From contig NZ_GG694006.1 in the NCBI RefSeq assembly GCF_000160695.1, positions 976,336 through 1,040,335 of the forward strand: a DNA stretch of 64,000 nt, given 5' to 3'. Of this stretch, positions 5,949 to 40,063 are shown piece by piece. Numbering within the stretch: position 1 is the stretch's first letter; each line of letters starts with the position of its first letter. The position numbers and the translations under genes are program-made. The notes beneath the pieces were generated by a model, which ran no database searches, was not told where the DNA came from, and was given only the letters and a program-made list of their open reading frames with translations. This stretch comes from Centipeda flueggei ATCC 43531 (GTDB lineage Bacteria > Bacillota > Negativicutes > Selenomonadales > Selenomonadaceae).

Positions 5949-5977
5949 ATTATAAAAGCCGCCGAAACATCTGTCAA
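5949..5977 (-). promoter_or_regulatory. Sigma-A type promoter of csp
   Basis: Minus strand TTGACA, 17 nt, TATAAT: a perfect consensus match, 78 bp upstream of the csp start. Confidence 0.85.
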
Positions 5978-6095: not shown

Positions 6096-8834
6096 TTACA
6101 GATGGGGAAAAAACTCCGCCACACGCCGCAGCCGCTCCCGTTCCAGCTCCTCCCTGCGGTCAAAGAGTTCCCGATAGACATTCATGTATTCATCAAGATG
6201 CCCTGCGAGAAGCCGATGCTCTGCCACATAGCGGTAAGCATTCTCCGCGAGCGTGCGCCTGAGATCAGCGCGGCGGATCAGGAGGTCGAGCTTCTGTGCG
6301 AACTCCTTTGGACTGCGGTAGATCAGCCCCGTCTCTCCGTCGCGCACCGTCGCCGCGTAGACCGTCGGCGCGGCAAGCACCGCCGCACCGTTTCCTGCCG
6401 CCTCGATGAACTTGAGGTCGGACTTGGCGCGGTTGAACTCCGTATCATTAAGCGGCAGGAGAGCGATATCTGAGGAGCGGAGCGCCGCCATATAACGGTC
6501 ATACGACACAAAAACATAGCCGGACTGTATGCCGCTGATGAATTGTTTTTCCTCCGTCTGCAGGGCCTCATAGAATCCATAATCTGATACCACCATGAAT
6601 CGGAGTCGTTCTCCATGTTTATGGATGGCCTCATTGATCAACGGCATCAAGGGCTCCCAGTCCGCGCGGCGGTTCAGCGCCCCGAAGAAAATCGTTGTCT
6701 GCGGGGCGTTCTCATCATAGCTGCGTACGGGCGGCAGCTCCGCCAATTGGTTCTCAAAGAGATAGATATACGGATTGAACTGCCGCAGCTGATCCACCAA
6801 ATACTTCGTGGAGGTTTGTATCGCAGAGACAGCACGGAATGAGAAAAAGTTCCGTGCGGCAAGATCCCCGATTGCCGACGGATGATCATCAACTTCCTGG
6901 AGAAAAATATTATGGCGTTCCCCCAACTTCTTCATAATGGCGCAGACAGCCGCATCTGGCCTCACATCGCCGCGTTCCAACACGATAAGTGTATCCCGAC
7001 AATCCGCAAAATCATAGAAATCAAGTGCCGCATCGCCCTCCCGCACGGCTCCGCTCAGAAAAATATCGCCGCGCCGCTCCAACGCGCCAAGCGGTGCATC
7101 GAGGCGAATGCTCGTACATGCCTCGACACGATTCATGATCATCATGGGCAGTGGATACACATCCTGCTCGTATGACTTCCGCAGTTTTGCAGATACCGAA
7201 GGAAGCAGGGGAGCAATGATACTTTGCTCCTCCGCCATCCGTGCAAGAACAATCCGATAATCCTGCTCCTGCGTAATAAAGATGCGCTTATGCCAATATT
7301 CTTCGACCAGGCGGCGCCACTCCACGCGGCTGCGCACGATAACCTCTGCCTGTGCACCCTCCTGCCCCTCATGGCGGCGGTAGAGACTGAGAGGGCGCGC
7401 AAAGATGACTGCATCGCCGCGCTCCATGAGCTCCAGCCACATGGCACAGTCCGAAATGGTCTGATAGCCGCGCGCCTGTGCCCGCCAATAGTGGTGCGTG
7501 AGATCACTGCGCCGAAAGAGTACAGCAGATGGCTCACCGAGGAAATTCGAGCGGTCCATCAGCGTCGCCCGGCCGACTGCTGCACCGCGATAGCACTCGT
7601 ACATCCCGTGTACCGGCACGTTCCCCTGCCATAGTCCGAGATAATTTCCGCCGCCGTCGACAACGCCGCGCAGCGACGTGACCAGAGTAATGCCCGGCTC
7701 ACGCAGGAAGGCATCCATCATGCGCGTGATCTTGTCGGGCAGGAGGATGTCATCGTCCATGCACCACTGCAGATACTCCCCCTGTGCCAGGCGCTCGAAT
7801 GGCATAAAATTCTCTGCCTTTGTCCGCGCCGCGCGATTGCGCACATAGCGGATGCGTACATCGTCCCCATAGGCCTGCATCAGCTCCGCCGTCCGCTCGT
7901 CCGTGCTGTTGTCGCAGACGATGATCTCGATGTTCGGATAGGTCTGTGCGCGGGCAGATTCGAGTGTCTCACGAAAATAATCGGGACGATTATAGGTCGG
8001 AATCATGATGCTGACAAGCGGTGCGTGCAGAGCCGCACTGCGGCAGGTCGCACGCACGAGGGCAGGATCCCACGCCTCACCGATGCCGTCGAGCGCTCTC
8101 TGCCAGAGCATCTCCGGCACACCGACATCCAGTCCCCATTGCTCCAAGAGCAGTGGACGCATGGCGGTCAGCGTCAGATCCCAGAGCTCACACTTTCCCG
8201 CTGCACGGTGCGCGGCATAGGCAGGCACACGCAGGAGTGTATATCCTGCGCAGCGCAGGCGGAACGAGAGATCAATATCGGCGCCGCTGCCCCCCTCAAA
8301 TGCTTCATCAAATTTTCCGTGCCGGAAAAACGCCGCACGCCGCACAAGAAGTGCAAAGCCTTCAAGGAACGCACTCACCGTGGTTTCCTTGTGATGCTCA
8401 CGCACCCACGCTTCCGGATCTGCGCCCTCTGCGGCGATGCTTTCGGCGTTGATATACTGCCATGAAAAGGTCGTGTGACCGCTATAGGGACCAACTGCAG
8501 CAACGCGCTCATCAAAGAAGAATACGCGCTCCATCGTCCCCAGACTTTCGGCAGTAAAGATCACGCCCTCCTGCAGAAAGAGCAGAAGATCGCCCGCAGC
8601 TGTCTCTGCGCCGCGATTGTTCCATGCAGCAGGATGCTCCTCCGCCACAGGGAGAATACGGCAGGGCAGGTCATGGAGCTCCGCCCGCACGGCGTCCTCC
8701 GCTCCCTGCGGAACCGGGATGATCACTTCTGCCGCAACATTCGCCGCAGACGCTGCCGCAAGGGCGGACTCTGCTGTCTCTCGCAGATATTCCCCCGCCT
8801 CCGTCAGCGTAAGAACAATGCTGAGCGTGCTCAT
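6096..8834 (-). CDS. Three-domain glycosyltransferase (GT2-GT2-GT4-like)
   Basis: Cytoplasmic 912-aa protein that looks like three transferases in one chain. Residues about 1-250 form a divergent GT2 fold with a WNNRGAE-type acceptor motif. Residues about 275-560 are a clear GT2 domain (VSIMIPTYNRPDY, then WCMDDDIL as the DxD metal site). Residues about 620-890 resemble a GT-B (GT4-type) nucleotide-binding half (IFFGALNRRADW, IALLPLNDTEFN, KFIEAAGNGAAVLA). It is the last gene of the operon and overlaps the TPR gene by ATGA (8831-8834). Substrate unknown; flagellin is the inferred acceptor from context. Confidence 0.8.
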   Translation of the reverse strand: MSTLSIVLTLTEAGEYLRETAESALAAASAANVAAEVIIPVPQGAEDAVRAELHDLPCRILPVAEEHPAAWNNRGAETAAGDLLLFLQEGVIFTAESLGTMERVFFFDERVAAVGPYSGHTTFSWQYINAESIAAEGADPEAWVREHHKETTVSAFLEGFALLVRRAAFFRHGKFDEAFEGGSGADIDLSFRLRCAGYTLLRVPAYAAHRAAGKCELWDLTLTAMRPLLLEQWGLDVGVPEMLWQRALDGIGEAWDPALVRATCRSAALHAPLVSIMIPTYNRPDYFRETLESARAQTYPNIEIIVCDNSTDERTAELMQAYGDDVRIRYVRNRAARTKAENFMPFERLAQGEYLQWCMDDDILLPDKITRMMDAFLREPGITLVTSLRGVVDGGGNYLGLWQGNVPVHGMYECYRGAAVGRATLMDRSNFLGEPSAVLFRRSDLTHHYWRAQARGYQTISDCAMWLELMERGDAVIFARPLSLYRRHEGQEGAQAEVIVRSRVEWRRLVEEYWHKRIFITQEQDYRIVLARMAEEQSIIAPLLPSVSAKLRKSYEQDVYPLPMMIMNRVEACTSIRLDAPLGALERRGDIFLSGAVREGDAALDFYDFADCRDTLIVLERGDVRPDAAVCAIMKKLGERHNIFLQEVDDHPSAIGDLAARNFFSFRAVSAIQTSTKYLVDQLRQFNPYIYLFENQLAELPPVRSYDENAPQTTIFFGALNRRADWEPLMPLINEAIHKHGERLRFMVVSDYGFYEALQTEEKQFISGIQSGYVFVSYDRYMAALRSSDIALLPLNDTEFNRAKSDLKFIEAAGNGAAVLAAPTVYAATVRDGETGLIYRSPKEFAQKLDLLIRRADLRRTLAENAYRYVAEHRLLAGHLDEYMNVYRELFDRREELERERLRRVAEFFPHL

Positions 8835-9730
8835 GCTTTCAGCGTGCGCAGGAGCATGAAGTCCGTCTGCCCCATCTTTGCCGCGACCTGAAGAGCCTTT
8901 TCCCGCTCGCCAATCTCATGCAGGAGGAGTGCCATATTGCGCAGTGTCATATCACAGCCGGGATCAAGCTCAAGTGCCGCCGTCAGAAGTTCCCGTGCGC
9001 CCGCATAGTCATCCTGCACGTATGCCGCACCGGCAAAGGCATTGAGTGCCGCCGTCTTCTCGGCTGGGCGGATGGGCTGCGCCATGATCTGCGCTGCCTG
9101 TGCCTTTGCATCACCGGAGGGCCGAGATGCCGGCGCAGCAGGAACGGAGCCCGGCAAGGCACTGTTCATCGGTGCCGTCGGCGCAGCGGCAGACGCTGTC
9201 GGAGCAGCGGCAAGTCCCAAGAGCGCCGCGAGATGCGGATACTCTGCACGCGTTCTATCCTGCGTGAGGCGCGCATCGAGTCCCGCACGCCGCTCGATCT
9301 CTGCGCGCTGTGCGTCCGTAAGCACTGCCTGATGCAGGGAAAGGATATTCTCGTAGAGCTTCAGCGCATCATCCGTCCGCTTCTCCCGCTGGCAGATCCG
9401 CGCGAGCAGAATGCGGACATCGACATCGTCCGCATTGATGGAGAGTGCATTCGAGATCCAGTCTGCCGCACGCTTGTAATCTCCCATCTCGAAGTAGGCA
9501 TGTGCCACGTCTCCATAGCACTCCTTCGGCGGCTCTCCCTGAGCAAGGGCATCGGCAAAGGCATTGATCGCCTCTGCGTACTTCTCCTTCTTTACATACG
9601 CATGAATCTGCTCTGCCGTAATGATTTTCTTCTCTGCCATCGTCATCGTCCCTTTCATCTGCCGTTTCTCTTCCCGCCGCGCACGTTTTCGGCGTGCACG
9701 CTCTGCGCGGTTTCTCTTACGTTTTTTCAT
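8831..9730 (-). CDS. TPR-repeat protein of the glycosylation operon
   Basis: Up to 299 aa. The N-terminus is extremely basic (MKKRKRNRAERARRKRARR), followed by TPR-like helices around residues 40-140, an Ala/Pro-rich linker around 175-215, and more TPR-like helices to the end. No catalytic domain is visible, so a scaffold or acceptor-binding role is inferred. The start is uncertain: 9730 gives a 14-bp overlap with the upstream gene, whereas an ATG at 9640 has a better AAAGGGA ribosome site and would remove the basic tail. It is coupled to the next gene by ATGA. Confidence 0.7.
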   Translation of the reverse strand: MKKRKRNRAERARRKRARREEKRQMKGTMTMAEKKIITAEQIHAYVKKEKYAEAINAFADALAQGEPPKECYGDVAHAYFEMGDYKRAADWISNALSINADDVDVRILLARICQREKRTDDALKLYENILSLHQAVLTDAQRAEIERRAGLDARLTQDRTRAEYPHLAALLGLAAAPTASAAAPTAPMNSALPGSVPAAPASRPSGDAKAQAAQIMAQPIRPAEKTAALNAFAGAAYVQDDYAGARELLTAALELDPGCDMTLRNMALLLHEIGEREKALQVAAKMGQTDFMLLRTLKA

Positions 9731-11231
9731 GAAGACACCGCTCCCATATCATCTCATACGCGTCCTCCATCGCGCGGACATAGCCCATGCCGTTCATCAG
9801 CGGAGAAGCGCGCATCATCCGCGGAATCGCCGTCTGCAGGGCACCGAGCAGCGTCCTGTCACGCGCCAGCAAAACGGCTCGTTCGATATACTCCTCCGTA
9901 CTGCCCGCAATTAACTCGGAAAGCCCTGCATTGTGCAGGAGACTCACGCCGAACCGTGCGCCATGGCGCGTCCCTGCCCGCACAACGACAGGAAGCCCCA
10001 TACAAAGAGCCTCACACGTCGTCCCGCCGCCCTGATACGGAAACGTGTCCAGAATCACATCTGCATCCAGATAGTCCGCAAGGTAGTCCTTTGACCCCGG
10101 CCGCAGCTCAAGCCGCGCCGGATCAATGCCCGCCTGCACGGCGCGCTTCTTCATCCGCGTCAGCGTTTCCTTCAGCGGATGCACATTCTTCAGCAGGAGC
10201 CGCGCCATGGGAACAGCGCGCAGGATCTCCCCCCATGCCGTCAGCATCGCATCCGTGATCTTTGCGAAGTTGTTGAAACTGGCAAAGACGACGTTCTCAT
10301 GCGGGGTGCGCTGCAGGTGCTCATAGGGACGGAACCGCTCCGACGGGGTAAAGCACAGATGTGTCTGCGGTAGACGCAGAATCTGCTCTGTGAAATGCAC
10401 TTCTTCCCCCGGAGGATCACAGAATGGATCACCCAGGAAGTAATCCATCGCAGAGAGGCCCGTCGTATTGAAGTACCCGATGCCTGAGAGCTGTACGGGG
10501 GCAGGCTTATGCGCCGCAATCATCAGCGTCTTCCCGCCTGCCGAATGTCCCGCGAGGTCAAAGAGGATGTCGATCTCATCCGCATGAATACGTGCCGCCG
10601 CCTCCTGCGGACAGCACTTGGAGAGATCTGTGTAACCATCCACCATGCCGGCGACCCAATCTGTCGTCTCACATTGGAGCGTTCCTATGTCGTAGAGACG
10701 AACCTCATATCGACTGCGGTTATAGGCAGAAAAAAGCTGTATCGCAAAGTTCAGAACAATATGGTCGGTCAGATTCGGTGAGAGATACCCAATTCTCAGT
10801 TTTCCGTGTTTGCGTACCGTGTGGGAAAACAGCGGCAGAGATCCGAGCATTTTCGCATAGGCGGCATGAGCATCACACATCATCTCATCCGTGACTCCAT
10901 CCGCATAGTGGAGATACATGAGATAGTTGCTCAGTGCAGCAAGGCGATCGGCATAATGCTCGCGCGGCAGTTCCCACGCCAGCCGCAGATGCGGCAGAGC
11001 CGCAGGAAGATCCGCCAGCCAGTAGAGTGCCTGTCCCATGAGGTCATGCAGTTCCCACCGGCGTTCCGCCGGGAACAAACGCTCCTGCTCCATCTCTCGC
11101 AGGAGGTTCAGCCCCTTCCCTAGATGACCGGCACCTAACTCCCGTTTTACACGACGATATGCCTGCTGAAAGGCCTTTGTTTTCGCTCTCCCACTTTGCC
11201 CAGATGGCACGATAGCATTCCTCCATTTCAC
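9717..11231 (-). CDS. OGT/SPINDLY-like glycosyltransferase (GT41)
   Basis: About 504 aa. A short helical N-terminal part is followed by a GT41 catalytic region: KLRIGYLSPNLTDH, DEIDILFDLAGHSAGG (catalytic-type His near residue 229), KPAPVQLSGIGYFNTTGL, and LDTFPYQGGGTTCEALCMG as the UDP-sugar site near residue 400. Such enzymes transfer a sugar to Ser/Thr of proteins. The frame as drawn begins at a GTG and overlaps the upstream GT41 gene by 188 bp out of frame. An ATG at 11093 is another possible start. The overlap suggests that the upstream gene lost its original stop (see findings). Confidence 0.82.
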   Translation of the reverse strand: MKWRNAIVPSGQSGRAKTKAFQQAYRRVKRELGAGHLGKGLNLLREMEQERLFPAERRWELHDLMGQALYWLADLPAALPHLRLAWELPREHYADRLAALSNYLMYLHYADGVTDEMMCDAHAAYAKMLGSLPLFSHTVRKHGKLRIGYLSPNLTDHIVLNFAIQLFSAYNRSRYEVRLYDIGTLQCETTDWVAGMVDGYTDLSKCCPQEAAARIHADEIDILFDLAGHSAGGKTLMIAAHKPAPVQLSGIGYFNTTGLSAMDYFLGDPFCDPPGEEVHFTEQILRLPQTHLCFTPSERFRPYEHLQRTPHENVVFASFNNFAKITDAMLTAWGEILRAVPMARLLLKNVHPLKETLTRMKKRAVQAGIDPARLELRPGSKDYLADYLDADVILDTFPYQGGGTTCEALCMGLPVVVRAGTRHGARFGVSLLHNAGLSELIAGSTEEYIERAVLLARDRTLLGALQTAIPRMMRASPLMNGMGYVRAMEDAYEMIWERCLHEKT

Positions 11232-13884
11232 GGATATACCCCGCCTGATCCATGACGGGCGATGCCTTCATCCGATCGCGAAGCTCACGATGCAGGGCAT
11301 CGAGGAGGTCGAGATTCCCCGCCAGAGCCACGGCTGTCTCGACATAGTCCGAGAGGCTGGTCGATGCGAGATCGGAGAGTCCAATGTTTGCCAGAATACT
11401 GTACGTGAAACGCGTACTGTGTCGCTCCGTATAATAGGATATGACAGGGACGCCCATGTAGAGCGCATCGCAGGTCGTCCCGCCGCCCGGCCACGGAAAG
11501 GTGTCGAGCGCAATATCCACATCGAGATAGCGATTCATATAATCCCGTGAGGCCTGCTCAAACTGCACACGGTTCATATCAAAGCCAAGCTGCTGCAGTC
11601 GCTCGTACGCCGACTGCACCACCCCCGGTCTCGAATAGGCATTGTTTTTGAGGAGAAGCCGCGCCTGCGGCACACGTTCCATAATCTCCTGCCACGCACG
11701 CAGCACGGGATCACGGAATTTTTGATACTGGTTGAAGGATGCAAACTGGATATAGCCGCGCCCCCGTGCCGGCGTCCCCGTCGATGCAGGGAGGTGCGTA
11801 TACCCATTATAGCAGAACTGACTCGTCAGGCGCAGAAGTTTTTCCACATAGAACGCCTCGCTGCCGCTTCCCTCGGGGTCGCAGCAGTGATCCGTCACGA
11901 AGTAGTCCACCGTCCGGAGCCCCGTCGTTGCCATGTAGCCAAGCCCCGAGAGCTGGACAGGTGCCGGCTTCCAGGCGAGAGCAGCAAGCCCTGTGCCCGC
12001 CGTATGTCCCGCCAGATCGAATAGGATATCCACCTCATCCGCATGGATCTCCTGCGCAATCCGCTCCATATCCCGCTCATGCGCTGAAAGATCACGCCAC
12101 CGCGTCACGAGTGTCTTAAAGAAGTCTGTATACTGATCCGACTTCCCAAGACTGTATACGTAAACGTCAAACGCACTTGCATCATATCCGGCAAGAAACG
12201 GCCATACAAAGTACTGCATGACATGCTGACGAAAGTCCCCGGAGATATAGCCGATGCGAATCTTATCCTTTTTTCGCCGTTCCTGATGCGTGCAGGGCCG
12301 CACATCAGCAAAGAGTGCACCATAGCCTAGGCTCTTCTCATAGACCTCCTGCGCACTGACATCGGCCGCATTGAGCTTCAGAAGTCCGGCACCATAGTAA
12401 ACGCGTTGGAGAAACGGATCTGCCGCCTCACGCGCATAGGCAATCGCACACTGCGATGCCAGTTCCGCATCACTGTCCGCAGGCGCATGATCTGCATATG
12501 CCTTCAGCAGCGCTGCCCGAACCTCCGCTACAACGGAGAGGCCTTCTTCGATACGCTTAAGCCCATGCTGTACACGTTCAAACACGCCATTCTGTGTTCC
12601 CGGCACAATCCCCGAAACCGAGAGGTAGAGCCGCGCCCCCTCACGATCCGCGGGAAGCCCCTGTGCAGACATTGCCCACCGTGCCGCCAGCGGGGCAGCA
12701 CCGCCGAAGTGATAGCCCCATGCAAGGCTCATGCACTGCTCCGCAGAGAGTGCATCATGCCCATCCAGTTGATGTGCAGCAGTGAGAACCGCATTCCAGT
12801 CTTGACGGGAGGCGGCACGGGCAAGTTCATCACTCAGCGCAGCGGAAGAGCGCCCGTCTCCCTGTGCAAGGACGCGCTCGTAGGCACGCTCAAGTACAAA
12901 TTGAAGCATCCCCGCATCGCAAAAATCAATCAGCCGCCAGCGCAGCAGTCCATGACACGCTGACAATCGTTCACGGTCAGCGCACAGAGCCAGGCACGCA
13001 GCTGCCGCTTCTTGTACGTCGCATCGTGGGGGAAGCTCCAGTTGACAGAGCAGATGTTTCGCATAGCGGTCCCGCACTAGATGTTCGGCGGTAATCAAGG
13101 GAATTCCATGCTCTGCTGCATGGCAGACATCGATGAGATCGACCGACATGCCAAGCACGACATCCAGTGTATCGTATGAGAGATCATCCACGAAGTCAAG
13201 GGACGACCCCGCACTGCCGCGCGCAGCAATCTGCTCGATATCCTCTGCGCTCAGCCCCCCCGCAATGGATGCGGGCAAAACGAGATGTACATCGCCGATC
13301 GCGGGCAGCAGGCACGACAGGAGTTCCAAGAAATGGGAGGATTCGCCTGCCGTCATCCTGCCGCACATGCCGATGGCCGGAATGCCCGCATCGAGCAGCG
13401 GTGCACGATAGGTATATGCCGCATCCTGCTCGATCTGCGTATAGCAGTAGGGGAAGACCTCCTGCCCATCGACCATCGGAAGGCGCATGGCAAGCCCCTC
13501 GGGAACATGCTCTGCGAGCGACACGATATGCTCTGCCGGTCTCTGCCGCATCACCGCAGCATGATGCTCGCTGACCGCATCAAGCGAGAGATCGACGAGC
13601 AGGTCGAGATGATCACGGCGAATGAGCTCTGCTGCTCCTTCAGGCGTACACGTACCGACCTCACGTACCGTCGCCTTCTCAGCAAAACGTGACGAATCGC
13701 CGCCGATCTCTGTATGATAGGCATAAATTTCATAGCGAAAGGCATCATACGCCATAAAGAACATGGGCAGCAATTCGCGCAGGCGGCCTTGTCCGAGATC
13801 CGCAGAAAGATAGCCCAGCCGAATCTTCTGCACCTTGCGGCGTTTTGCCGCATGTGCCTTCTGCTTTTTCTTCTTTTTCATCAT
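11044..13884 (-). CDS. Dual GT41 protein with a degenerate first module
   Basis: 946 aa, beginning with a lysine-rich tail (MMKKKKKQKAHAAKRRK). Residues about 20-320 align by eye with a GT41 catalytic domain (KIRLGYLSADLGQG) but the DLAGHTAG motif has become DLSLDAVSE near residue 98, so the key His is gone. Residues about 420-560 are helical, and about 570-900 form an intact GT41 domain (KIRIGYISGDFRQHV, DLAGHTAG, KPAPVQLSGLGYMATTGL, GGGTTCDALYMG). The start at 13884 overlaps the upstream stop as ATGA. The last 45 or so residues, after AIWAKWESEN, are low-complexity and look like out-of-frame read-through. Confidence 0.82.
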   Translation of the reverse strand: MMKKKKKQKAHAAKRRKVQKIRLGYLSADLGQGRLRELLPMFFMAYDAFRYEIYAYHTEIGGDSSRFAEKATVREVGTCTPEGAAELIRRDHLDLLVDLSLDAVSEHHAAVMRQRPAEHIVSLAEHVPEGLAMRLPMVDGQEVFPYCYTQIEQDAAYTYRAPLLDAGIPAIGMCGRMTAGESSHFLELLSCLLPAIGDVHLVLPASIAGGLSAEDIEQIAARGSAGSSLDFVDDLSYDTLDVVLGMSVDLIDVCHAAEHGIPLITAEHLVRDRYAKHLLCQLELPPRCDVQEAAAACLALCADRERLSACHGLLRWRLIDFCDAGMLQFVLERAYERVLAQGDGRSSAALSDELARAASRQDWNAVLTAAHQLDGHDALSAEQCMSLAWGYHFGGAAPLAARWAMSAQGLPADREGARLYLSVSGIVPGTQNGVFERVQHGLKRIEEGLSVVAEVRAALLKAYADHAPADSDAELASQCAIAYAREAADPFLQRVYYGAGLLKLNAADVSAQEVYEKSLGYGALFADVRPCTHQERRKKDKIRIGYISGDFRQHVMQYFVWPFLAGYDASAFDVYVYSLGKSDQYTDFFKTLVTRWRDLSAHERDMERIAQEIHADEVDILFDLAGHTAGTGLAALAWKPAPVQLSGLGYMATTGLRTVDYFVTDHCCDPEGSGSEAFYVEKLLRLTSQFCYNGYTHLPASTGTPARGRGYIQFASFNQYQKFRDPVLRAWQEIMERVPQARLLLKNNAYSRPGVVQSAYERLQQLGFDMNRVQFEQASRDYMNRYLDVDIALDTFPWPGGGTTCDALYMGVPVISYYTERHSTRFTYSILANIGLSDLASTSLSDYVETAVALAGNLDLLDALHRELRDRMKASPVMDQAGYIREMEECYRAIWAKWESENKGLSAGISSCKTGVRCRSSREGAEPPARDGAGAFVPGGTPVGTA

Positions 13885-16800
13885 AGCCCCTGTCCGACAT
13901 TTCTCAATGCCATGATATAAGCCTCTTCCAGCGCACGCATATAATCCGCCTGATCCATGAGCGGAGATGTCTCCATCTTCCTGCGCAGCGTGCAGTGTAT
14001 CCCGTCCAAACGATCCAGATCCTCCGCCAGTGAGACGGCACAGGAGATGTATGCCGAGGCAGATGCGACCGCCAGCTCCTCCGCACCGACGAGGTGCAGC
14101 ATCGCATAGGAAAAGCGCGTGCTGCGCCGCGTACCGTACATCGTTACCACGGGTACGCCCATATAGAGCGCATCGCAGGTCGTCCCGCCGCCCGTCCACG
14201 GATAGGTATCGAGCGCAATATCCACATCAAGATAGCGCTCCATATAGTCCGTCGTCGCAGGTTCCAGCAGGATGCGGTCAAGATCAAATCCCAGCCGTGC
14301 AAGGCGTTCCTCTGCCGCTCTCCGCATCGCAGCGGCAAAAAACACCTGCGACTTCAGCAGCAGTTTGGACTGCGGTACGCGTTCCAAAATCTCCCGCCAT
14401 ACACAGAGCATCTCGTCGGTCCACTTGCGGTACTGGTTGAACACCCCAAAGAGGATCGCTCCACGCTGACGCGCGGGCGTCCCCGTCGGCACGGGCAGCT
14501 CCGCGCGCGGCACATAGACGAATTGGCTCGGCAGGCGGATCAGCTGCTCTGTGAAATACCGTTCCCGCTCACCATCAAGGGGATCGCACAGCGCATCCGT
14601 GAGAAAGTAATCGACGGCAGAGAGCCCTGATGTCGCCATATAGCCGAGCCCCATCATCTGCACGGGGGCGGGGCGTCGTGCGAGCACGGGCAAGGCGCCG
14701 CCCGCCGCGTGTCCCGCCAGATCGACGAGAATATCCACCTCATCCGCATGGATCTGTTCAGCGATCTCCTCCGCCGTGCGTCCGCCCATCTCCCGCCACT
14801 GATCCGCATGAGGACGCAGCGCCGCCGTCACCTCATCCGGCTGCTCCGCCGTGCTGTATACATAGACCGCAAAGCGCGTGCGGTCATACATCGTCAGAAA
14901 GGGCTGTACGAAATGCTGCAGAACATTGCGGCGAAAATCCGGTGAAATATAGCCCACGCGAATCTTTTGATGTGCGTATGGGGTTCGGCAGTCATACTGC
15001 GGCACATGGGCGAAGAGATCACCGTAGGCACAATGCGCCCGAAAGAGTTCCTTCTCGTCCACATCCTGTGCATTCTGCGCCAAGAGGAAGGAACTATACA
15101 GAGAAGGATCCGACGGCTCCTCCTCGTAGGCGCAGCGATAGAACTCCGCCGCCCGCACATCCCCCATCCGATAGGCGACGGCAGCACGCAGCCGCATGAA
15201 CTCATGGCGCAGTGCACTGCGCCCCGTGCTCAGATACTCCTCCGCAAGAGCCATCGCGCGCGGCAGATCTCCCTGCCGCTCCACAGCATAGGTATAGAGA
15301 TAGCACAGCATATCGTCCTGCCCGCCCGCAGCAATGGCGCGTTCCGCGATCTCCTGTGCCGCAGCATACTGCTCCGCGCCGAGCAGAGCAAACATACGGC
15401 CGCGCAGGGCCTTACTGTCCTTATACATACTATCGTCATGATGGTCGATGGACTTTAGCTGCTCACTGTGCCGGCCATACGCCGCCCATACTTCTTCGTA
15501 AGCGGCTCCGACTGCCGCTCCATACCCTGCGGCATCCATCACAGGCGACTGCGCCAGCATCTGACGCAGCCCCGTGTGCAGTGCATCCAGCATCGATGCA
15601 TCCCCTGCAAGAGAGACGGCCAAGGCGATGTACTCCTCTTCCGTATGAGCGATCAGTGCCTCTGCCCCGATGTTCGTGAGGAGCGATGCACCAAAGCGGC
15701 TGCCAAGTGTCTCTCCTGAAAGCGTCACGACGGGCACCCCCATATAGAGCGCATCACAGGTCGTCCCGCCGCCGGGATAGGGGAAGGGATCCAGTGCAAT
15801 ATCCATACGATTGTATGCGGCGAGATAGTCCGGAGAATTCCCCTCTGTATCCACGCGGCTGAGTGAGATGCCTGCCGCCGCAATCCGCGTCAGCATCTCT
15901 GCGCGTGCATCCTCTTCGGAAAAAACCGCCGCTTTGAGAAAGAGGCGGCTCTCCGGCACACGGCGCAGGATCTCTGCCCATACGCGCAGGACATGGTCAT
16001 TGATCTTGGTAAAGTTATTAAAGCTGCCGAACACAATACTGCGCCCTGCCGTCGGAGCGTGGGCGGGGGCAGGGGCAGGTTGGAGCGGCTGCCAGCAGAA
16101 ATGCGTCGCAGGGAGGACGAGCAGTTCCTCGGTAAAGCCCTGCTCCGCATCCCCTGCGGCAAGAATGGGATCGGCAAGGAAGTAATCCACGGTTCTGAGA
16201 CCTGTGGAGGCGAAATAGCCGATGCCCGAAATCTGGACGGGCGCGGGACGATAGGCGAGAATCGGCAGGGTGCTGCCTGCCGTATGCCCTGCGAGATCCA
16301 CGAGAATATCGATGCCGTCACGATAAATCGCGTATGCCGCCTCCTCAGGCGTGATGCGTGAGAGATTGCGGAACCCCTGCACCGAACGCTTGACCTGCTC
16401 CGTATAGTCATCCTCCGTGCCGAGCGCATAGGCCGTCACCGTAAAGCGCGCAGGGTCGAGCGCCGTCATCAGCGCATACGAAAACGAGAGCACCACATGC
16501 TCTCTGACATCGGGAGAGAGATAACCGATGCGGAGCCGCTGCCCTCGTCGGTGTGCACAGTGATCGAACGTCCGGATCTGCGCAAAGAGCGCCCCGTACT
16601 CCTCTGCCGCCCGCTTCTCCTCGGCAGGTGCCGCAGGAAGATAGTGGCGGTTAAAGAGCACATTGCTCGCATTGAGCGCACGCAGCGTGAGATCTGGCGC
16701 AGCATCGCGCGCACGCGCATAGAACTCCACCGCCTTTTCCGCAGCCCCAAGAAAGCGGGCACACTGCCCCGCGAGATTATAGACCTTCTCCGCGACCTCC

Positions 16801-17114
16801 GCAGACATGGGCGCGCCGAAAAGAGGGGTCAGGACACGCAGTGCCGCCCTGCGCTCTCCCATAAGGAGGTGGATGCGTGCACGCAGGAAGATCGTATAGG
16901 GATCATGCGGCGCACGCACCCTGCACTCCTGCCATGCCTTCAGGGCCCCCTTCGCATCCCTCTCCTCAATGCAGAGCGCCGTCAAGAGACTTGCCGCTTC
17001 CGCCGGCTCATAGCGACGCAGCTTCTCGATGCTGCGCCGCGCTTCTCTCACGGCTCCGCGCTCAAGCGCCGCAAAGATACGGTCACGCAGTGCCTCAAGC
17101 TTCTGCCCGTTCAT
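13881..17114 (-). CDS. Tandem double GT41 glycosyltransferase
   Basis: 1077 aa with two complete SPINDLY/OGT-like units in one chain. Unit 1 (about 1-555) has TPR-like helices, then RLRIGYLSPDVREH, DLAGHTAG near 275 and DPFPYPGGGTTCDAL near 448. Unit 2 (about 570-1077) repeats the order: TPR helices, KIRVGYISPDFRRN, DLAGHAAGG near 798 and LDTYPWTGGGTTCDAL near 976. Both retain the RPAPVQ motif and the glycine-rich UDP site, so both look active. The start at 17114 is fixed by an ATGA overlap with the upstream gene; the 53-codon open extension further up is a shadow of that gene. Confidence 0.86.
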   Translation of the reverse strand: MNGQKLEALRDRIFAALERGAVREARRSIEKLRRYEPAEAASLLTALCIEERDAKGALKAWQECRVRAPHDPYTIFLRARIHLLMGERRAALRVLTPLFGAPMSAEVAEKVYNLAGQCARFLGAAEKAVEFYARARDAAPDLTLRALNASNVLFNRHYLPAAPAEEKRAAEEYGALFAQIRTFDHCAHRRGQRLRIGYLSPDVREHVVLSFSYALMTALDPARFTVTAYALGTEDDYTEQVKRSVQGFRNLSRITPEEAAYAIYRDGIDILVDLAGHTAGSTLPILAYRPAPVQISGIGYFASTGLRTVDYFLADPILAAGDAEQGFTEELLVLPATHFCWQPLQPAPAPAHAPTAGRSIVFGSFNNFTKINDHVLRVWAEILRRVPESRLFLKAAVFSEEDARAEMLTRIAAAGISLSRVDTEGNSPDYLAAYNRMDIALDPFPYPGGGTTCDALYMGVPVVTLSGETLGSRFGASLLTNIGAEALIAHTEEEYIALAVSLAGDASMLDALHTGLRQMLAQSPVMDAAGYGAAVGAAYEEVWAAYGRHSEQLKSIDHHDDSMYKDSKALRGRMFALLGAEQYAAAQEIAERAIAAGGQDDMLCYLYTYAVERQGDLPRAMALAEEYLSTGRSALRHEFMRLRAAVAYRMGDVRAAEFYRCAYEEEPSDPSLYSSFLLAQNAQDVDEKELFRAHCAYGDLFAHVPQYDCRTPYAHQKIRVGYISPDFRRNVLQHFVQPFLTMYDRTRFAVYVYSTAEQPDEVTAALRPHADQWREMGGRTAEEIAEQIHADEVDILVDLAGHAAGGALPVLARRPAPVQMMGLGYMATSGLSAVDYFLTDALCDPLDGERERYFTEQLIRLPSQFVYVPRAELPVPTGTPARQRGAILFGVFNQYRKWTDEMLCVWREILERVPQSKLLLKSQVFFAAAMRRAAEERLARLGFDLDRILLEPATTDYMERYLDVDIALDTYPWTGGGTTCDALYMGVPVVTMYGTRRSTRFSYAMLHLVGAEELAVASASAYISCAVSLAEDLDRLDGIHCTLRRKMETSPLMDQADYMRALEEAYIMALRNVGQGL

Positions 17115-18589
17115 TGCCGCACCTCCGCCAGCCGCGCAATTCTCCGCAGCATCTGCTGTGCTTCGGGTGCTGCGAGAACCTCGGTACAGGAACGCGGCAG
17201 GAGGACGGAAAGAGCCCCCTGCTGCTCTGCAGAAAATCCTGTTCCACAGGCTGCACCGACGGCAGCAGCACACTCCATTTCCTCGATGAGCGATGCCGCC
17301 GCCGCATTCGCATCCCCCGCGAGCAGAAAACGGCGGCGCGGCGGAAACTTCACGGCACTGCGCCGATCATAGTAAAGTGCCGCGAGGGGAAAATCTGCTC
17401 CGGCAAGTACCGAGGCAAGAAAGGCCGCGTCTGCCTCGCGGTCATACATGCCGTTCAAAATCTCAATCAGCGCAGCATCGTCTGCTCCGACCGCCGCCAT
17501 GATCCGCAGAAACGCCGCAAGGAGCGGTGCATGGCGCGGATTCAGGCGAAGTGCATGCTCCGCCGATAGGATTGCCTCCTCCTTCGCATTACGCAGCAGT
17601 GCTGCCTCACCAAGGCGCATATACGCCGTTGGAAGAAGCACGGCGGAGAAGTCCCCTTCACGGTAGTATTCCTCATGCAGGCGGATCCCCTCCGCGTAGG
17701 CGGCACACGCCGTCATAATATACGACTGATCCCACGCATACGTCCCGTAGATCAGCGGATAGTCCGCTTTCTCCGGAAGTGCCGCGCGCGCCGCATCATA
17801 CCCCTCTCGAATCTCCGCATCCGATGCCCCCATCAGAATAAGAGACTGCAGGAGAACCGCATGGGGGCGATTCTCCGAACCGACCGGCCGGTCTGCACTG
17901 TCCCGTGCGAGCCGTGCATAGTGTGCTGCCTGCGGATAGTCCTCAAGCGTATAATAGCAGTCCATCAGATGGTATTCGTCGAGTTTCGCGTACTCTCCGC
18001 GTGCACGGCGCGCAAGGAGGAGCTCCAGATCACGCTGCGACTTGCCCTTGATGATGCGCGGCGAGTAGCCCGTGTGATAAAGCGTCAGTCCGGGCGCGAT
18101 CATCATCTGCCGCGCCGTATCGCCGCTGAGATTCTCTATGTGTTCATGAATGCTGCCCACAAAGCGGATGTGCGGTGCGCGGCGGAAGATGCGCTGCACC
18201 TCAGCACTTGTCCCGAGAAGCGCCCCCGTATCCACGTCGATATTGACGAGATGCACGATGAAGCCGTCAAGATACGGATGTGCGTCGTACTCCTCAAGCA
18301 GAGGGCGCACGCGCGGATTGCTCTCCTCCGTAAAGTACTCATCGGCATCGGGGAAGACGATCCAGTCGCCCGTCGCCGCATCGAGCGCAAAATTTTTCGC
18401 TGCGGAAAAATCGTTGATCCAGTCGAAATGGAGCACCCGTGCACCGCCTGCACGTGCGACCTCCACACTGCGATCCGTCGAGCCCGTATCGACGACAATC
18501 ATCTCGTCGGCAAAACTGCGCATCGAGGTGAGCCAGCGCGGAAGGTTCTCCGCCTCATTCTTGACAATGACACACGCTGAGATTTTCAT
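17111..18589 (-). CDS. GT2 glycosyltransferase with TPR tail
   Basis: 492 aa. The N-terminal 210 residues are a GT2 domain ([29 protein letters not shown], and FPDADEYF as the DxD metal-binding site), followed by TPR-like helices to the end. This is the single-module version of the three units found in the neighbouring 1304-aa protein. The start at 18589 forms an ATGA overlap with the upstream stop, and its own stop overlaps the next start in the same way. It probably adds the first or an extending sugar to a protein acceptor; the donor is unknown. Confidence 0.86.
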
Positions 18590-21500
18590 CCGATCCACTC
18601 CATCAATTCCCTCGCCTTGCGATGTGCAGGAGCCGTCGTCAGCGCCTGCATGAGATACTCACGTCCTGCGTCCGCATCGCCCATGCGCATGGCACAGAGC
18701 CCTGCCCCGTAGAGTGCCTCCGCGCCGCCCTGCTGCGCGCAGAGTTCCCATGCAGTACGCGCCTCCGCATCGCGTCCCGCCGTCATATAGGCATCGGCAG
18801 CGGCGTACAGCTCCTCGGCACCGTATGATGCCGCAGCGCGCAAAAAACGTTCGGCCTGATCCGTATCCGCATAGCGTACAAACGCCTCGCGCACGAGATG
18901 CAGCCCCTCCGTACTCTGCGGGCGCGGGACGGCATCCGGCTCATCATAATGCCGCCAGAACTCCTGTATCGCACGCGGCAGAAGGCTGCGCAGCCGTTCA
19001 TAGAGGCGCAGACGCCCTGCGTGCGTGGATTGTTCGAGACGGAGCAATACCTCGGGCATCTCCCGTACGTCTCCCGCAAGCGCTCCAACAATATGCTGCC
19101 CCAGTTCCACGGGCGCATCCGAACGCATCCACTGATAGGGCAGAGGCTCTGGAAACTCCGTGCCCGTCTCCTGCTGATACGCATCACGTGCCGCCTCACC
19201 CAAATGCAGCCAGCCGTAACTGTCAGCAAAACGGATAAGATAAGAAAGGACTTCGCGATCCCTGCCGAGCCGCTCCCGCAGTGCTGTGAGCAGCGCGCCC
19301 GTATCCATACCGCGATGCAGTTCCATAAAGGCATCCAGGGTCTCCTCACGCGCCGTCCCAAGAGAGAATGCACGTGAAAGTTCTTCCGCTGCTGCCGCAC
19401 GTTCCCCTGCGGCGGCAAGAAGACGCGCACGCGCTGCGGATACCGTCCCTGCCCATGCAGAAAATGCCGACGCCTCGCCTTCTGTCTCCTCGGGCTGGTC
19501 ATAGAGCTCCATCGCACGCGTCAGTTCCGATAATGCCGCCTCTCCGGCAGCATCCAAAAGCAGTCCAAGCCGCCCATGAAAATCCGGCAGGTGCGGGAAG
19601 GCCTCACATGCTGTGCGTGCCGCTGCGATCTGCTCGGCAAGCGGCGTGTTTTCCTTCTCCATCACATCAAGCAGAAGGTGATGCAGATGACTCTGTGCAC
19701 CAACCGATATGACATGATCTTCCCGTGCGGCACGTGCATAGAGCAGTGCCGCCGCATACTGTCCGAGGCCATAGTAAGTATCGGCAAGGTAACGATAATC
19801 CCCGGGGCGGATTCCCTCCTCGCTGATGCGCCGCTCCATCAAGGCAAGATTGCGCACGTGCTTCGCGTACATCCGCCCTGTCGAGTACCCCACATGACGG
19901 ATGGAAAGGGCGGCGATTTCATGATAGATCTGTGGCTCACCGTTCTTCTTCCGCAGTGCCTCATGCACCCTTCCCTCGTAGAAAAGCCCACGGCCCATCC
20001 GCAGGAGGCGGATGTGCGGCGCACGCCCGATCTCATGGTCATCATCATCCTCATCCACATGCACAATCGGCAGAAGGACAGCATCTTTATGCGGCATCAC
20101 GACATCCATCATGGCAAGATAGGACCGCAGTTCCGACGGATCGAAGAAACTCTCATCCGCATCGAGCACCGCGGCCCAGTCAGCATCCACGTGCGCAAGA
20201 GAAGCATTTCGTGCGGCGGCAAAATCGTCCTGCCACGTGAAATCATAAACTCTTGCCCCTGCACGTTCCGCCAGTGCCCGCATGCCGTCTGTCGACCCGG
20301 TATCAATCACGATGCATTCATCTGCATAGGCCGCGGCATTTTCAAGCCAGCGCTCCATATCCTGACGGTCATTGCGTGCAAAGACGCATGCTGCAATGCG
20401 GATCTCATGTGTGTGGGCATCGATACGCTGCCAGATCTCCGCACGGCGCTGCAGCTCCGCTCTCATCTCATCCGTAAAAAGGGACTGCTCCGTTCCCGTG
20501 GGGGACGCCAGCTCCAGTGCTGGTGCAGCTGCCTCAACTGCCGCGCCGTAACGATGAAATGCAGCAAGAGCCTCCGCATACTCCGCATGCATCTCGGGCA
20601 GCTCCGGGAATGCCTTCACTGCCTTCTCTGCAATATCGAGGTAGTTATCCCGCCGCATTGGCTGCATCCCATAGATACGCAGCAGAATACGCCAGCAGCG
20701 GCTCGCATAGACGACACTGCGCCGTCCGAGTGCCACATCTTTGCGTGCGTAGTACTCCGCATGATGAACATCACCCAGATTGTCATAAGTCTCCGCGAGA
20801 TAGCCCCAAATCCGCTCCGGCTCCTTTGTCTCAGCGAGCTCTGCCAGCAGAATGCGCAGATTGCGTTCTCCTTTCTCACGTGTAAGCACGGCAGAGTACC
20901 CCGTGTGCACGAGAGTCAAAAGATTCGGAGCGACCGTATTTGCCTTCGGTGCTGCACCATCCGCATCACGCAGCTCTTCATGAATGTGCCCGATGTAGTG
21001 TCGCCCTGCACGGCGGCGGAAAATCCGCGGCGCATAAGAGTCAAGCAGTGTTTCACCCGTCATCTCATCAATATTGTGCCAGGGAACGAGAAGCACCTCA
21101 CCGTCATCCGCGTCAGCCATCTCGATCGCCGTGCGAAGATTCCCCCGCGTCTCCGCGGAGAAATATTCATCTGCATCGATGAATATGACCCAATCGCCCG
21201 TCACGTGGGAAAGTGCCGCGTTGCGCGCCGCAGCAAAGTCATCTGTCCATGCTGCTTCGTACACAGCCGCTCCATAGGATTTCGCTGCAGCTACGGTATC
21301 ATCGCGCGACCCCGTATCGACAACAATAAGCTCATCCACGGCAGCCTTCAGGCTCTCGATTGATTTTTTCAGATGTACGGCATCATCGCGCACAATATAG
21401 CAGGCACTGATGCGAATATCCTCTCCGATTTCATCAGAAGTTCCCTGCATATATGCCCTTTCTCTCTCCTGCCATGACTTTGCTTGTACTTCATCCCCCA

Positions 21501-22500
21501 GATGCATATAGATCTGAGCGAGACGCGCCGCCACTCGCGCGGCCACCATGGAGTTAAAGAAGCTCGAATCGTGAAGTTCTGAAAAACCATGATCAAATTT
21601 ATCCAGTGCTGTCATCAGGCTCTCTGCTGCCTCAGGATATCGTGACAGTCCGCAGAGGATCATCCCGCGCTGCGCATAAAAATCGGGAAGATCCGGATAC
21701 TTCGCAAGAGCCTCGTCGGCAAGAGCAAGCATTTGCAAATCAGAATAGTGCAGTGCACGCATCGACTCAAGCATCTGATGATAGATCTTGCTCCCTGCGC
21801 CAACAAGGATGACATCGCTTTCCAGCACCCTGTGCGACAGGGAAAGAACACGCGGATAATCCTGCAGTCCGAAATAGCAGTCCGCAAGATAAGCATCGTG
21901 CATCGTCGTATGCCCATGCCGCGCCGCATCCTCCTCCAGCATGGCAATATTGCGTTTTATCTTCTCCGGTCCGCGTTCTGAAAGATATCCCGTATGCCCA
22001 AGAGAAAGCTCCTCGTCTGCATAGACGAGAATTTGCTCCTCCCCGTCGTCACGCAGCGGCTGTTCATGAATCATTCCCTCGTAGTGCATCCCCGGCATTC
22101 GAAAAATACGCGGGGATCTCTCGTAATGTGCATCTTGTCCAGAAGCACTCCAATAACTGTATAGACCGACCATGGCGATATCCCACTGTGTATAACCATG
22201 AACAATCTCTGTGATCGCCGAACGTACATTACGCGGATGAAGAAAATATTCATCTGCGTCCAAAAAAATAACGATATTTCCCGTTACATGCTGCAGCGCC
22301 TCATTGCGGGCAAGCGAGAAATCGTTCTGCCATGCGAAGTCATGGACTTCGGCCGAAAACTCTGCGCACACATCCCGCACCACAGGACTCCCGGCTGTCG
22401 ATACAACGATGATTTCATCTGCCGCAGCTCGTACAGAGGCAAGAGAGCGACGCAGTTCCTCCGCCTCGTCCTTGACAATATAGCACGCAGATACCCTCAT
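18586..22500 (-). CDS. Triple-module GT2/TPR glycosyltransferase
   Basis: 1304 aa, first gene of the operon. Three GT2 domains follow one another, each with TPR-like helices: module 1 about 1-360 ([26 protein letters not shown]), module 2 about 362-699 ([19 protein letters not shown]), module 3 about 700-1040 ([20 protein letters not shown]), then a C-terminal TPR-like region. Each keeps a DxD-type motif. The start at 22500 has a strong GAGGGGGG ribosome site and matches the start of the other modules. The open frame continuing upstream into the flagellin gene is a shadow. A sigma-A type promoter lies 25 bp upstream. Confidence 0.87.
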
Positions 22501-22524: not shown

Positions 22525-22553
22525 ATTATAAGCGATAGAAACGTTTTTGGCAA
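22525..22553 (-). promoter_or_regulatory. Sigma-A type promoter of the glycosyltransferase operon
   Basis: Minus strand TTGCCA, 17 nt, TATAAT, partly overlapping the T-tail of the flagellin terminator. It would give a leader of about 19 nt before the start at 22500. Confidence 0.75.
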
Positions 22554-22583
22554 AAAAAGAACCCCTCCCCGAGGGGAGGGATT
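22552..22583 (-). terminator. Flagellin terminator
   Basis: CCCTCCCC and GGGGAGGG form a GC-rich stem followed on the minus strand by a long T-run, directly after the flagellin stop at 22614. Confidence 0.9.
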
Positions 22584-22613
22584 CCTGAATTCCGTATAAA
22601 TCGCCGCAGCGAA

Positions 22614-23939
22614 TTAGCGGAGGAGCGAAAGGACAGCGGAGCTGTTCTGGTTCGCCTGTGCGAGCATCGACTGAGCAGCCTGAAGAAGAACATTGTTCTT
22701 CGTGTACTCCGTCATCTCCTTTGCCATATCCGCATCGCGAATCGTGGACTCGGAGTTCTGGACGTTCTCGGAAGCCGTCGTGAGGTTGGAGCTCGTGTAA
22801 CGGAGACGTGTCTGAACAGCACCGATGTTGGCCTGCTCGTCGAGCGCCTTCTGGAGAGCAGAGTCGATCGAGTTGATCGCAGCGTTTGCCTTCTCCTGGG
22901 TCTGGACGCTGATGACGGAACCATCCGTGCCCTTCATGCCGAGTGCGAGCGAACGCATATCCGTCATGCTGACCTTGATCGCCTGGTTGGCTCTCACACC
23001 CGTCTGGAGAACGAGAGCGTTGTCCTCGGACTTGTTCTCTGCACGGATGCGCTCGTTGAACGCATCGAGTGCCGTGTTCGCCGTCTTGCGGAGAGCACCC
23101 GTGTTGTCCGTGATGCCGATCGTGAACGCCGAGATCTGGAACGTCGTACCAGCACCAGCAGCATTGACCGAGAGTGCCGTCTTGTTGTCCGCTGTGTAGA
23201 CGCTGTTGCCGGCCTTGTCGAAACCGATCCACGCGCCCTGCGTCGAGCCGCCGACGAGATCCGAGCCTTTCACGGAATCCGAGCCGTTGAACGCCGTCTT
23301 GCCGATAATGTCCGAAAGAGTGTTCGTGCCTACGGAGAAGGTCGTCGTGTAGGTCTTGCCCTGACGGACATAGGAAACCGTGACGTTATCCGTCGACTGG
23401 ATGTTGAGGCTTTCGTTCTGACGGCTCTGGAGTGCCGTCAGCGCAGAACCCCATGCCGCAGCCGTGCTCAGGGCGCTGTTCGACAGCGTCGTGCAGGTTG
23501 CCGTTCCGACGCTGTTGCGCGAACCATCAACGAGGTACTTGCCGTTGTACGTAGCAAGCGCATTGTCGTCGATCTGGTCAACCATCTGGTTGATCTCTTT
23601 CTGGATCGTGCGGCGATCCTCGTCCGTGTTCGTGTCGTTCGCGGCGTTGATTGCCTTTTCCTTCAGGGTCTTGAGGATCTCAACCGTGCTGGCGACAGCG
23701 CCCTCAGCGGTCTTCATCATGCTGTTGCCGTTCTGCGTGTTCTGGTTGTCCTGATCGAGCGAACGGATCTGGACGCGCATACGCTCGGAAATAGCATAGC
23801 CCGAAGCATCATCGCCGGCATCGTTGATCTTCATGCCCGAGGAGACCTTCTGAAGGCTCTTCGCAAGAGCCGACTGGTTCTTGTTCAGGATGTTGAGCGT
23901 GTTGACCGCCGACATGTTGTTCTTAACTACCATTGCCAT
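22614..23939 (-). CDS. fliC: Flagellin
   Basis: Filament subunit of 441 aa, exported by the flagellar type III system. The conserved N-terminus ([35 protein letters not shown]) forms D0/D1, and the C-terminus ends in the usual coiled coil ([17 protein letters not shown]). The middle (about 170-340) is variable and rich in Ser/Thr, a plausible O-glycosylation target for the operon immediately downstream. The start has a GGGAGG ribosome site. Expression appears to depend on a sigma-28 type promoter about 170 bp upstream and on a structured leader. The chaperone FliS and CsrA/FliW are encoded upstream. Confidence 0.96.
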
Positions 23940-24203: not shown

Positions 24204-24367
24204 TTAAGGAATCACGAATAAACGCAGCTCCATCATCTTGACGCATCTTCTTTGCCCGCACTTTGGCAGGAAATCCTCCGCAGAGCATCAGGCTGCGCCC
24301 GGTTCTTCCCCTTGTTCAGGCGAAACATCTGCGCCAATCCAAGAGACTTTTATTGGTGCCCCCTTAA
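24204..24367. repeat. MITE-like palindromic repeat, copy 1
   Basis: About 164 bp, from TTAAGGAATCACGAATAAA to a mirrored end TTTTATTGGTGCCCCCTTAA. It shares its order of internal blocks (CGCATCTTCTTTGCCCGCAC, then TTCTTCCCC, ATCTGCGCCAA) with the copy at 56250. It overlaps the stop codon of the FliT-like gene and sits just upstream of the flagellin promoter. Confidence 0.7.
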
Positions 24368-38728: not shown

Positions 38729-40063
38729 CTACCGCGCCGCGTGCACGGCATCCCGTACGACCTGTGCCATATAATCGATCTTCGCATCCGTCAGCCCGGG
38801 GTAGACACCGAGCCAGAACGTGTCGTTCATAATGCGGTCGGTCGACGCGAGCGTCCCCGCCACACGGTAGCCCTCGCCCGAGGCGCGCATGGCATCAAAA
38901 CAGGGGTGCTTCGTCAGATTCCCCGCGAAGAGCATGCGCGTCTGGATGCCCCGCCCCTCGATGTACGGCACAATCTTTGCACGATCCACGCCGTCACGAC
39001 AGGTCAGCAAAAAGCCGAACCAGCTGGGATTCGCGTGCTCCGTTGCCTCCGGCAGGACAAATGCATCGCCCAGATCGGCGAGTGCCGCGCGGAGCCGCGC
39101 AAAGTTATGCCGGCGACGCGCGACAAAGGACGGCAGTTTTTTCAGCTGAGCGACACCGACGGCCGCCTGCATATCCGTCGCCTTGAGGTTGTAGCCGAAA
39201 TGCGAGTAGACGTATTTGTGATCGTACCCGTGCGGCAGTGCACCGTACTGCCCGTCGAAGCGATGTCCGCAGCGGTTGTCCTGCCCCGACGCGCAGACGC
39301 AGTCGCGTCCCCAGTCGCGCAGGGAGCGCACGATGCGGTGGAGGAGCCCATCATTCGTATAGACCGCGCCGCCCTCGCCCATCGTCATGTGGTGCGGCGG
39401 ATAGAAGCTCGACGTGCCGATATCACCGATCGTTCCCGTACAGCGCGTCTCTCCGTCGATCGTATACTGCGCGCCGAGCGCGTCGCAGTTGTCCTCAACG
39501 AGCCAGAGGCTGTGCTTTTGGCAGAACGTCTTGACCGCCGCCAGATCGAACGGATTGCCGAGCGTATGCGCAATCATGACTGCCTTCGTCCGTGCGGAGA
39601 GAGCCCCCTCGAGAAGTGACACATCCACATTGTACGTCGGCAGGCTCACATCGACGAATACGGGCACTGCACCGTACTGGATGATCGGTGCAACCGTCGT
39701 CGGAAAGCCCGCCGCCACCGTGATGACCTCATCGCCGCGCCCGACGGCACGCGCCCCGAGGAGCGGCGACGTGAGCGCCATAAAGGCGAGCAGATTCGCC
39801 GACGAGCCCGAGTTCACGAGCGAGCAGTGCTTGACCCCAAGATAGGCCGCCAGCCCGCGCTCGAACTCCTCCGTGTAGTGCCCCGCCGTCAGCCAGAACT
39901 CAAGCGCACTCGCGACGAGATTCTCCATCTCCTCATGATCGTAGACGCGCGCCGCGTACGGCAGACGATCGCCCGGGGAGAAATCCTCCTTTGGTGCATG
40001 ATACTTCTCACAGTACGCCCGTACAAGCGCGAGTATCTCCCCGCGCATCTCCTGCTCACTCAT
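38729..40063 (-). CDS. rfbH: CDP-4-keto-6-deoxyglucose-3-dehydrase (E1)
   Basis: 444-aa PMP- and [2Fe-2S]-dependent enzyme that removes the C3 hydroxyl of CDP-4-keto-6-deoxy-D-glucose on the way to CDP-3,6-dideoxyhexoses. The aminotransferase fold is clear (NSGSSANLLAFMAL, EDNCDALGAQY), and FYPPHHMTMGEGGAV has His in place of the PLP-binding Lys, the hallmark of E1. Cys residues near DCVCASGQDNRCGH would bind the cluster. The start overlaps the rfbG stop by ATGA. Confidence 0.93.
   Translation of the reverse strand: MSEQEMRGEILALVRAYCEKYHAPKEDFSPGDRLPYAARVYDHEEMENLVASALEFWLTAGHYTEEFERGLAAYLGVKHCSLVNSGSSANLLAFMALTSPLLGARAVGRGDEVITVAAGFPTTVAPIIQYGAVPVFVDVSLPTYNVDVSLLEGALSARTKAVMIAHTLGNPFDLAAVKTFCQKHSLWLVEDNCDALGAQYTIDGETRCTGTIGDIGTSSFYPPHHMTMGEGGAVYTNDGLLHRIVRSLRDWGRDCVCASGQDNRCGHRFDGQYGALPHGYDHKYVYSHFGYNLKATDMQAAVGVAQLKKLPSFVARRRHNFARLRAALADLGDAFVLPEATEHANPSWFGFLLTCRDGVDRAKIVPYIEGRGIQTRMLFAGNLTKHPCFDAMRASGEGYRVAGTLASTDRIMNDTFWLGVYPGLTDAKIDYMAQVVRDAVHAAR

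Follow-up and report, generated by a model that had tools for sequence, protein, structure and literature searches.

Several described systems resemble the locus analysed here in part. In Caulobacter, the TPR domain of FlmG binds flagellin (PMC7591256), and enterobacterial flagellin loci carry GT41 or GT2 genes, with one glycosyltransferase (GT) family per strain (PMC4875605). Among GT41 enzymes, a residue at the donor position tells OGT (Cys917) from SPINDLY (Tyr744) (PMC9715652). The flagellin of Selenomonas sputigena is heavily O-glycosylated (PMC13339959). This species lives in the mouth and has been linked to caries and periodontitis, and the literature searched gave no gene assignment for its flagellin glycans. 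The O-glycans were reportedly described by Rath et al. in 2018 using mass spectrometry, and are said to comprise mono- to hexasaccharides.

In Centipeda flueggei ATCC 43531 we analysed a stretch of 64,000 nucleotides (the window), in which seven overlapping genes (g1 to g7; 6096-22500, minus strand) lie behind a flagellin gene (22614-23939, minus strand; 441 aa; Pfam Flagellin_N/C). This locus is very probably an operon for the cytosolic O-glycosylation of flagellin, with an unusually large set of modules and with flagellin as the presumed acceptor in this species. The late flagellar region ends with the operon as its final element: fliS, fliD, flaG, fliW, flgL, flgK, and flgN stand 5' of flagellin in the same orientation, and genes for a ribosome hibernation factor, a PepSY protein, and a P-type ATPase follow 3' of the operon. 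A preliminary description of the DNA had proposed an overlapping seven-gene operon, and its coordinates proved exact. All six junctions overlap: the extent is 4 nt (ATGA type) at four of them, 14 nt at another, and about 167 nt at g4/g5; the last overlap measures about 50 nt in relatives, and is longer here because the g4 stop sits about 42 codons further downstream. The same description had set the operon between flagellin and a terminator, of which the position beside flagellin stood; the clear terminator, however, is in the flagellin/g1 gap, and the terminator scan found no strong one just behind g7. This intrinsic terminator (22557-22586, minus strand), located 3' of flagellin, is kept in relatives and is followed by a promoter, TTGCCA-17-TATAAT (22525-22553, minus strand), present likewise in 12 of the 14 genomes of the genus and at a constant distance from the flagellin stop in those 12. 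Since a conserved promoter stands behind the flagellin terminator, the operon most likely forms a separate transcription unit, into which flagellin transcripts may perhaps read through. No match to a strict sigma-28 pattern was present within the window. A perfect consensus promoter (TTGACA-17-TATAAT; 5949-5977, minus strand) was observed between g7 and the ribosome hibernation factor gene. Separately, a dispersed repeat, GAGGATTTNCNGCCNAANTGCGGGCA, has a copy upstream of flagellin (24253-24278), with 14 copies in the genome versus none for the reversed control; in one relative (G007, locus L037) a similar copy lies between the promoter and g1.

The first gene, g1 (18586-22500, minus strand), encodes 1304 aa with three GT2-TPR modules (about 22500-21418, 21417-20404, and 20403-18586), and g2 (17111-18589, minus strand; 492 aa) adds a fourth. 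Two TPR-GT41 modules, g3a and g3b (about 17114-15450 and 15449-13881), make up g3 (13881-17114, minus strand; 1077 aa), whereas g4 (11044-13884, minus strand; about 945 aa) joins an N-terminal domain with a GT41 fold and no catalytic residues (12850-13884), a putative pseudoenzyme, to an intact TPR-GT41 part, g4b (11044-12849). A further TPR-GT41 protein of about 497 aa is encoded by g5 (9717 to about 11210, minus strand), whose GTG start at 11210 is uncertain. The 299-aa product of g6 (8831-9730, minus strand) is a TPR protein with a basic N-terminus, and g7 (6096-8834, minus strand; 912 aa) reads GT2-GT2-GT4-like (about 8834-8040, 8039-7275, and 7274-6096); its structure model was weak (mean pLDDT 65, pTM 0.44) and was left out of the interpretation. 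Pfam matches to Glycos_transf_2 were found in g1 (3.6e-44), g2 (2.5e-20), and g7 (7.2e-27), and to Glyco_transf_41 in g3 (2.7e-93), g4 (4.7e-42), and g5 (1.8e-38); TPR matches were found in g6 and, weak but present, behind the GT2 modules. Module boundaries in g1, g3, and g4 come from self-comparison, which also bore out the tandem GT units claimed earlier for the 1077-aa and 1304-aa chains. Together with Pfam and active-site residues, it confirmed the preliminary counts of four intact GT2-TPR modules (three in g1, one in g2; the latter seen by all three approaches), four intact GT41 domains (two in g3, one each in g4 and g5), one degenerate GT41, and a three-domain transferase (GT2-GT2-GT4, in g7).

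The catalytic residues agree with this tally. DxD and HE are intact in all four GT2 modules here and in 116/116 GT2 modules of the family set, and the nearest solved structure to these modules is that of Listeria GmaR (2.6e-27), followed by SunS. Likewise, the essential Lys (OGT K842, SPY K665) and the GGGTT-type loop are kept in g3a, g3b, g4b, and g5; g3b carries Asn at the position of OGT His498 throughout the genus. The nearest solved structure to the GT41 modules is Arabidopsis SPINDLY (3.7e-81), with 276 bits versus about 135 for human OGT. At the donor position, g3a and g5 have Tyr, and g3b and g4b have Trp; the OGT-type Cys occurred in none of 116 family modules, nor in the four of the window. 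Finding Tyr or Trp, and never Cys, argues against UDP-GlcNAc as the GT41 donor, and the Tyr/Trp split suggests that the GT41 modules fall into two or more subtypes.

In each of the 14 genomes of the genus, the N-terminal domain of g4 no longer has the catalytic Lys, the counterpart of His498, or the GGGTT loop. Its dN/dS (0.17-0.31, versus 0.09-0.14 for the live GT41 neighbour) indicates purifying selection. A full GT41 fold is predicted for it (pLDDT mostly 80-95), and the model superposes on SPINDLY with Z 25.6 and rmsd 3.1 over 320 residues; residues 17-347 of the g4 model were interpreted, the C-terminal GT41 half being of low confidence. The dead domain is most likely a scaffold or binding domain, and the locus may offer a conserved dead GT41 next to a live one.

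A comparison across Selenomonadaceae found the operon linked to flagellin in most genomes, rather than away from flagellar genes and tied to surface polysaccharide. In 14/14 genomes of the genus it is found 3' of flagellin and shares its strand; we take the compared relatives in the genus to include C. periodontii, S. infelix, and S. noxia. Among 20 other genera of the family with both genes, transferases stand beside flagellin in 12: in nine of these GT41 follows at a short distance on the flagellin strand, and in the other three it adjoins flagellin in another orientation. In the remaining genera, flagellin and GT41 are on different or short contigs; in some drafts (G024, G026, and G036) GT41 clusters lie away from flagellin. 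The same layout, with other module numbers, recurs in S. ruminantium, Mitsuokella, Anaerovibrio, Pectinatus, and Megamonas, and is shared by one genome from another family of the class (G052). Outside these, five genes with seven GT41 modules in all come after a flagellin-like gene in a Phycisphaerae genome (L092 1526-16700), so that flagellin-linked GT41 arrays may have arisen elsewhere too. In Desulfonema magnum (L138 2-15560), a single open frame of at least 5186 aa holds seven or more GT41 modules.

Within the genus, the middle GT2 domain of g7 has been exchanged in two species; at L036 17274-19988 and L043 1397-4177 it is only about 40% identical to relatives, with flanks more alike, which resembles a domain swap. 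Moreover, g3b has been lost in three species, and g3 together with g5 in one. C. periodontii has neither g3b nor g5, S. noxia carries three GT2 modules, and in G002 both g3 and g5 are absent. From module loss and the g7 exchange, species-specific glycans are predicted, and such gain, loss, and swapping between close species would allow matched comparisons of enzymes and glycans. In pairs with one genome (G006), g5 is 67-80% identical. The operon-linked flagellin of that genome (L036 309-1759) is in two frames, through a frameshift or a sequencing error, as is g3b of another (G003; L033 9076-10729).

The link to S. sputigena bears directly on the acceptor. In the genome that we take to be S. 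sputigena ATCC 35185, the flagellin (437 aa) has T, S, T, T, and S at residues 149, 182, 199, 259, and 334, presumably the five published glycosylation sites; five Ser/Thr out of five would arise by chance at 5e-4 given 22% Ser/Thr, with the exact length match uncounted. Directly behind this gene lie a double GT2, a GT2-g7M gene, a 1689-aa triple GT41, a single GT41, and a TPR gene. In the window, flagellin residues S182, T199, and T338 align with sites 182, 199, and 334. Operon-linked flagellins of the genus keep Ser at site 182 in 13/14, Thr at 199 in 14/14, and Thr at 334 in 12/14, whereas, in the two genomes examined, an unlinked second flagellin carries Pro at site 182 and either Arg or Gly at site 199. 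This second flagellin (L062 11073-12497; also L067) is about 62% identical to the operon-linked one and lies in a region without operon-type modules; judging from these residues, it may be an unglycosylated paralogue. The operon, then, most likely builds a heavy sugar coat of the kind measured on the relative's flagellum, and it supplies candidate enzymes for a flagellin that ranks among the most heavily glycosylated on record.

This reading has to be weighed against others. Polysaccharide loci often encode GT2 and GT4 folds, and CDP-dideoxyhexose genes (38729-41148) and rmlD lie within about 42 kb, as would suit a surface polysaccharide or LPS operon placed beside flagellin by chance. We consider this highly improbable: the seven genes include no lipid-carrier sugar transferase, flippase, or polymerase, TPR-GT41 and GmaR/SunS-like GT2 modules are of protein-modifying types, and no clear membrane segments were found in the operon proteins by hydropathy (no segment above 1.6 except two marginal ones within the GT fold of g4). 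Synteny with flagellin speaks against it as well, and so does co-occurrence: among 189 family genomes, GT41 is present in 182/183 that bear flagellin and in 0/6 that lack it (Fisher 1.2e-10), the latter representing about three independent losses, because all six fall in three genera. The sole flagellin-bearing genome without GT41 (G083) has GT2-TPR genes behind flagellin. Elsewhere, lone GT41 genes adjoin DNA polymerase III and gyrase A; they belong to a clade of their own, and no polysaccharide locus was found around them. The tandem catalytic modules within single chains might instead recall a processive synthase that adds a single repeating polymer to flagellin, an idea that is hardly credible given that the module folds are unrelated, the active sites have diverged (Tyr or Trp at the donor position), polymerase features are absent, and the S. 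sputigena glycans are reportedly mono- to hexasaccharides; the membrane-embedded feature of processive polysaccharide synthases was not seen in the hydropathy of the operon proteins. Both readings were dropped on these respective grounds.

It is also very unlikely that other proteins, such as hook proteins or adhesins, are glycosylated besides or instead of flagellin; the many modules, the ability of GT41 enzymes to act on many substrates, and the single GT41 genes elsewhere in the genome speak for this, but the heavily glycosylated flagellin of S. sputigena adjoins a homologous operon (PMC13339959) and GT41 is lost along with flagellin. A mostly redundant tandem duplication, in which few modules matter, would agree with the losses of g3b, g3, and g5 and with one GT41 being dead. 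In a quick tree, however, GT41 modules from different genera cluster according to position (those in position 1 with g3a, those in position 3 with g3b and g4b, and a g5 clade), the second-position clade having been lost from this genus, and this grouping points to ancient divergence with order kept, which argues for distinct steps over redundancy or a processive enzyme. Purifying selection acts, moreover, on all modules (dN/dS 0.06-0.38 in the closest genome pair), and we regard redundancy as unlikely. The preliminary description had envisaged a processive, multi-step O-glycosylation of the filament. Its multi-step part is upheld by synteny, by the 189-genome co-occurrence, by the GmaR- and SPINDLY-like enzymes, and by the S. 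sputigena homologue; "processive" was given up, since the modules are distinct, anciently diverged, and kept in order, which suggests stepwise action.

In the flagellin O-glycosylation that we favour, a soluble cytosolic set of transferases would modify the flagellin encoded just upstream prior to its export, with TPR arms gripping flagellin or the glycan being built on it. GmaR/SunS-like GT2 modules would add a first sugar, most likely GlcNAc, to Ser/Thr of the central region, SPINDLY-like GT41 modules would add another first sugar, most likely a deoxyhexose (rhamnose), to Ser/Thr of the same region, and other GT2, GT41, and g7 modules would lengthen these into short oligosaccharides, with the dead GT41 of g4 as a possible scaffold or binding domain. 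In its fullest form, two unrelated kinds of O-glycosyltransferase would act on one flagellin, GT2 modules starting GlcNAc chains and GT41 modules, as new bacterial protein O-rhamnosyltransferases, starting rhamnose chains at other sites, with further ordered modules extending both and the pseudo-GT41 as scaffold; we hold this to be a doubtful possibility, which, if true, would account for both linkage kinds reported on S. sputigena flagellin. Regarding donors, rmlD was present in 6/6 genomes checked, and gmd, present in this genome, had no match over the cut-off in the closest relative, a genome with all four GT41 modules retained; dTDP-rhamnose consequently fits better than GDP-fucose, and the donor assignments are plausible but tentative. 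An RfbH-like dehydrase and a CDP-glucose 4,6-dehydratase (3,6-dideoxyhexose route) are encoded at the 38729-41148 genes, about 15 kb upstream of flagellin, and rmlD starts about 400 bp past the right end of the window; these are possible donor genes for flagellin or LPS.

In brief, the closest counterpart is the O-glycosylated flagellin of S. sputigena, which shares a homologous flagellin, with three of five sites kept in this genus, and a homologous operon behind it; there the glycans have been described, with no gene assignment in the literature searched. Listeria GmaR, a flagellin O-GlcNAc transferase, has the same GT2 plus TPR layout and is the best solved GT2 relative, but is a single module that also acts as MogR antirepressor, compared with three modules in one chain and one further gene here. 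SPINDLY, the plant protein O-fucosyltransferase, resembles the operon in its TPR-GT41 layout, its essential Lys, and its lack of the OGT-type Cys, and the operon departs from it in that single chains carry tandem modules, g3b and g4b have Trp at the donor position, and the acceptor is likely a bacterial flagellin; likeness to SPINDLY or GmaR leaves the donor unproven, and the operon may contain bacterial SPINDLY-like enzymes for which the protein acceptor is defined. Caulobacter FlmG is likewise a cytosolic TPR-GT enzyme (TPR plus GT-B), but it is a single module and transfers pseudaminic acid; here there are many modules and no evidence of such a donor. Finally, enterobacterial flagellin glycosylation islands have one GT family each, whereas GT2 and GT41 arrays occur here together. 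That GmaR-like and SPINDLY-like arrays are combined with a conserved pseudoenzyme is new, as is the link from genes to glycans in S. sputigena.
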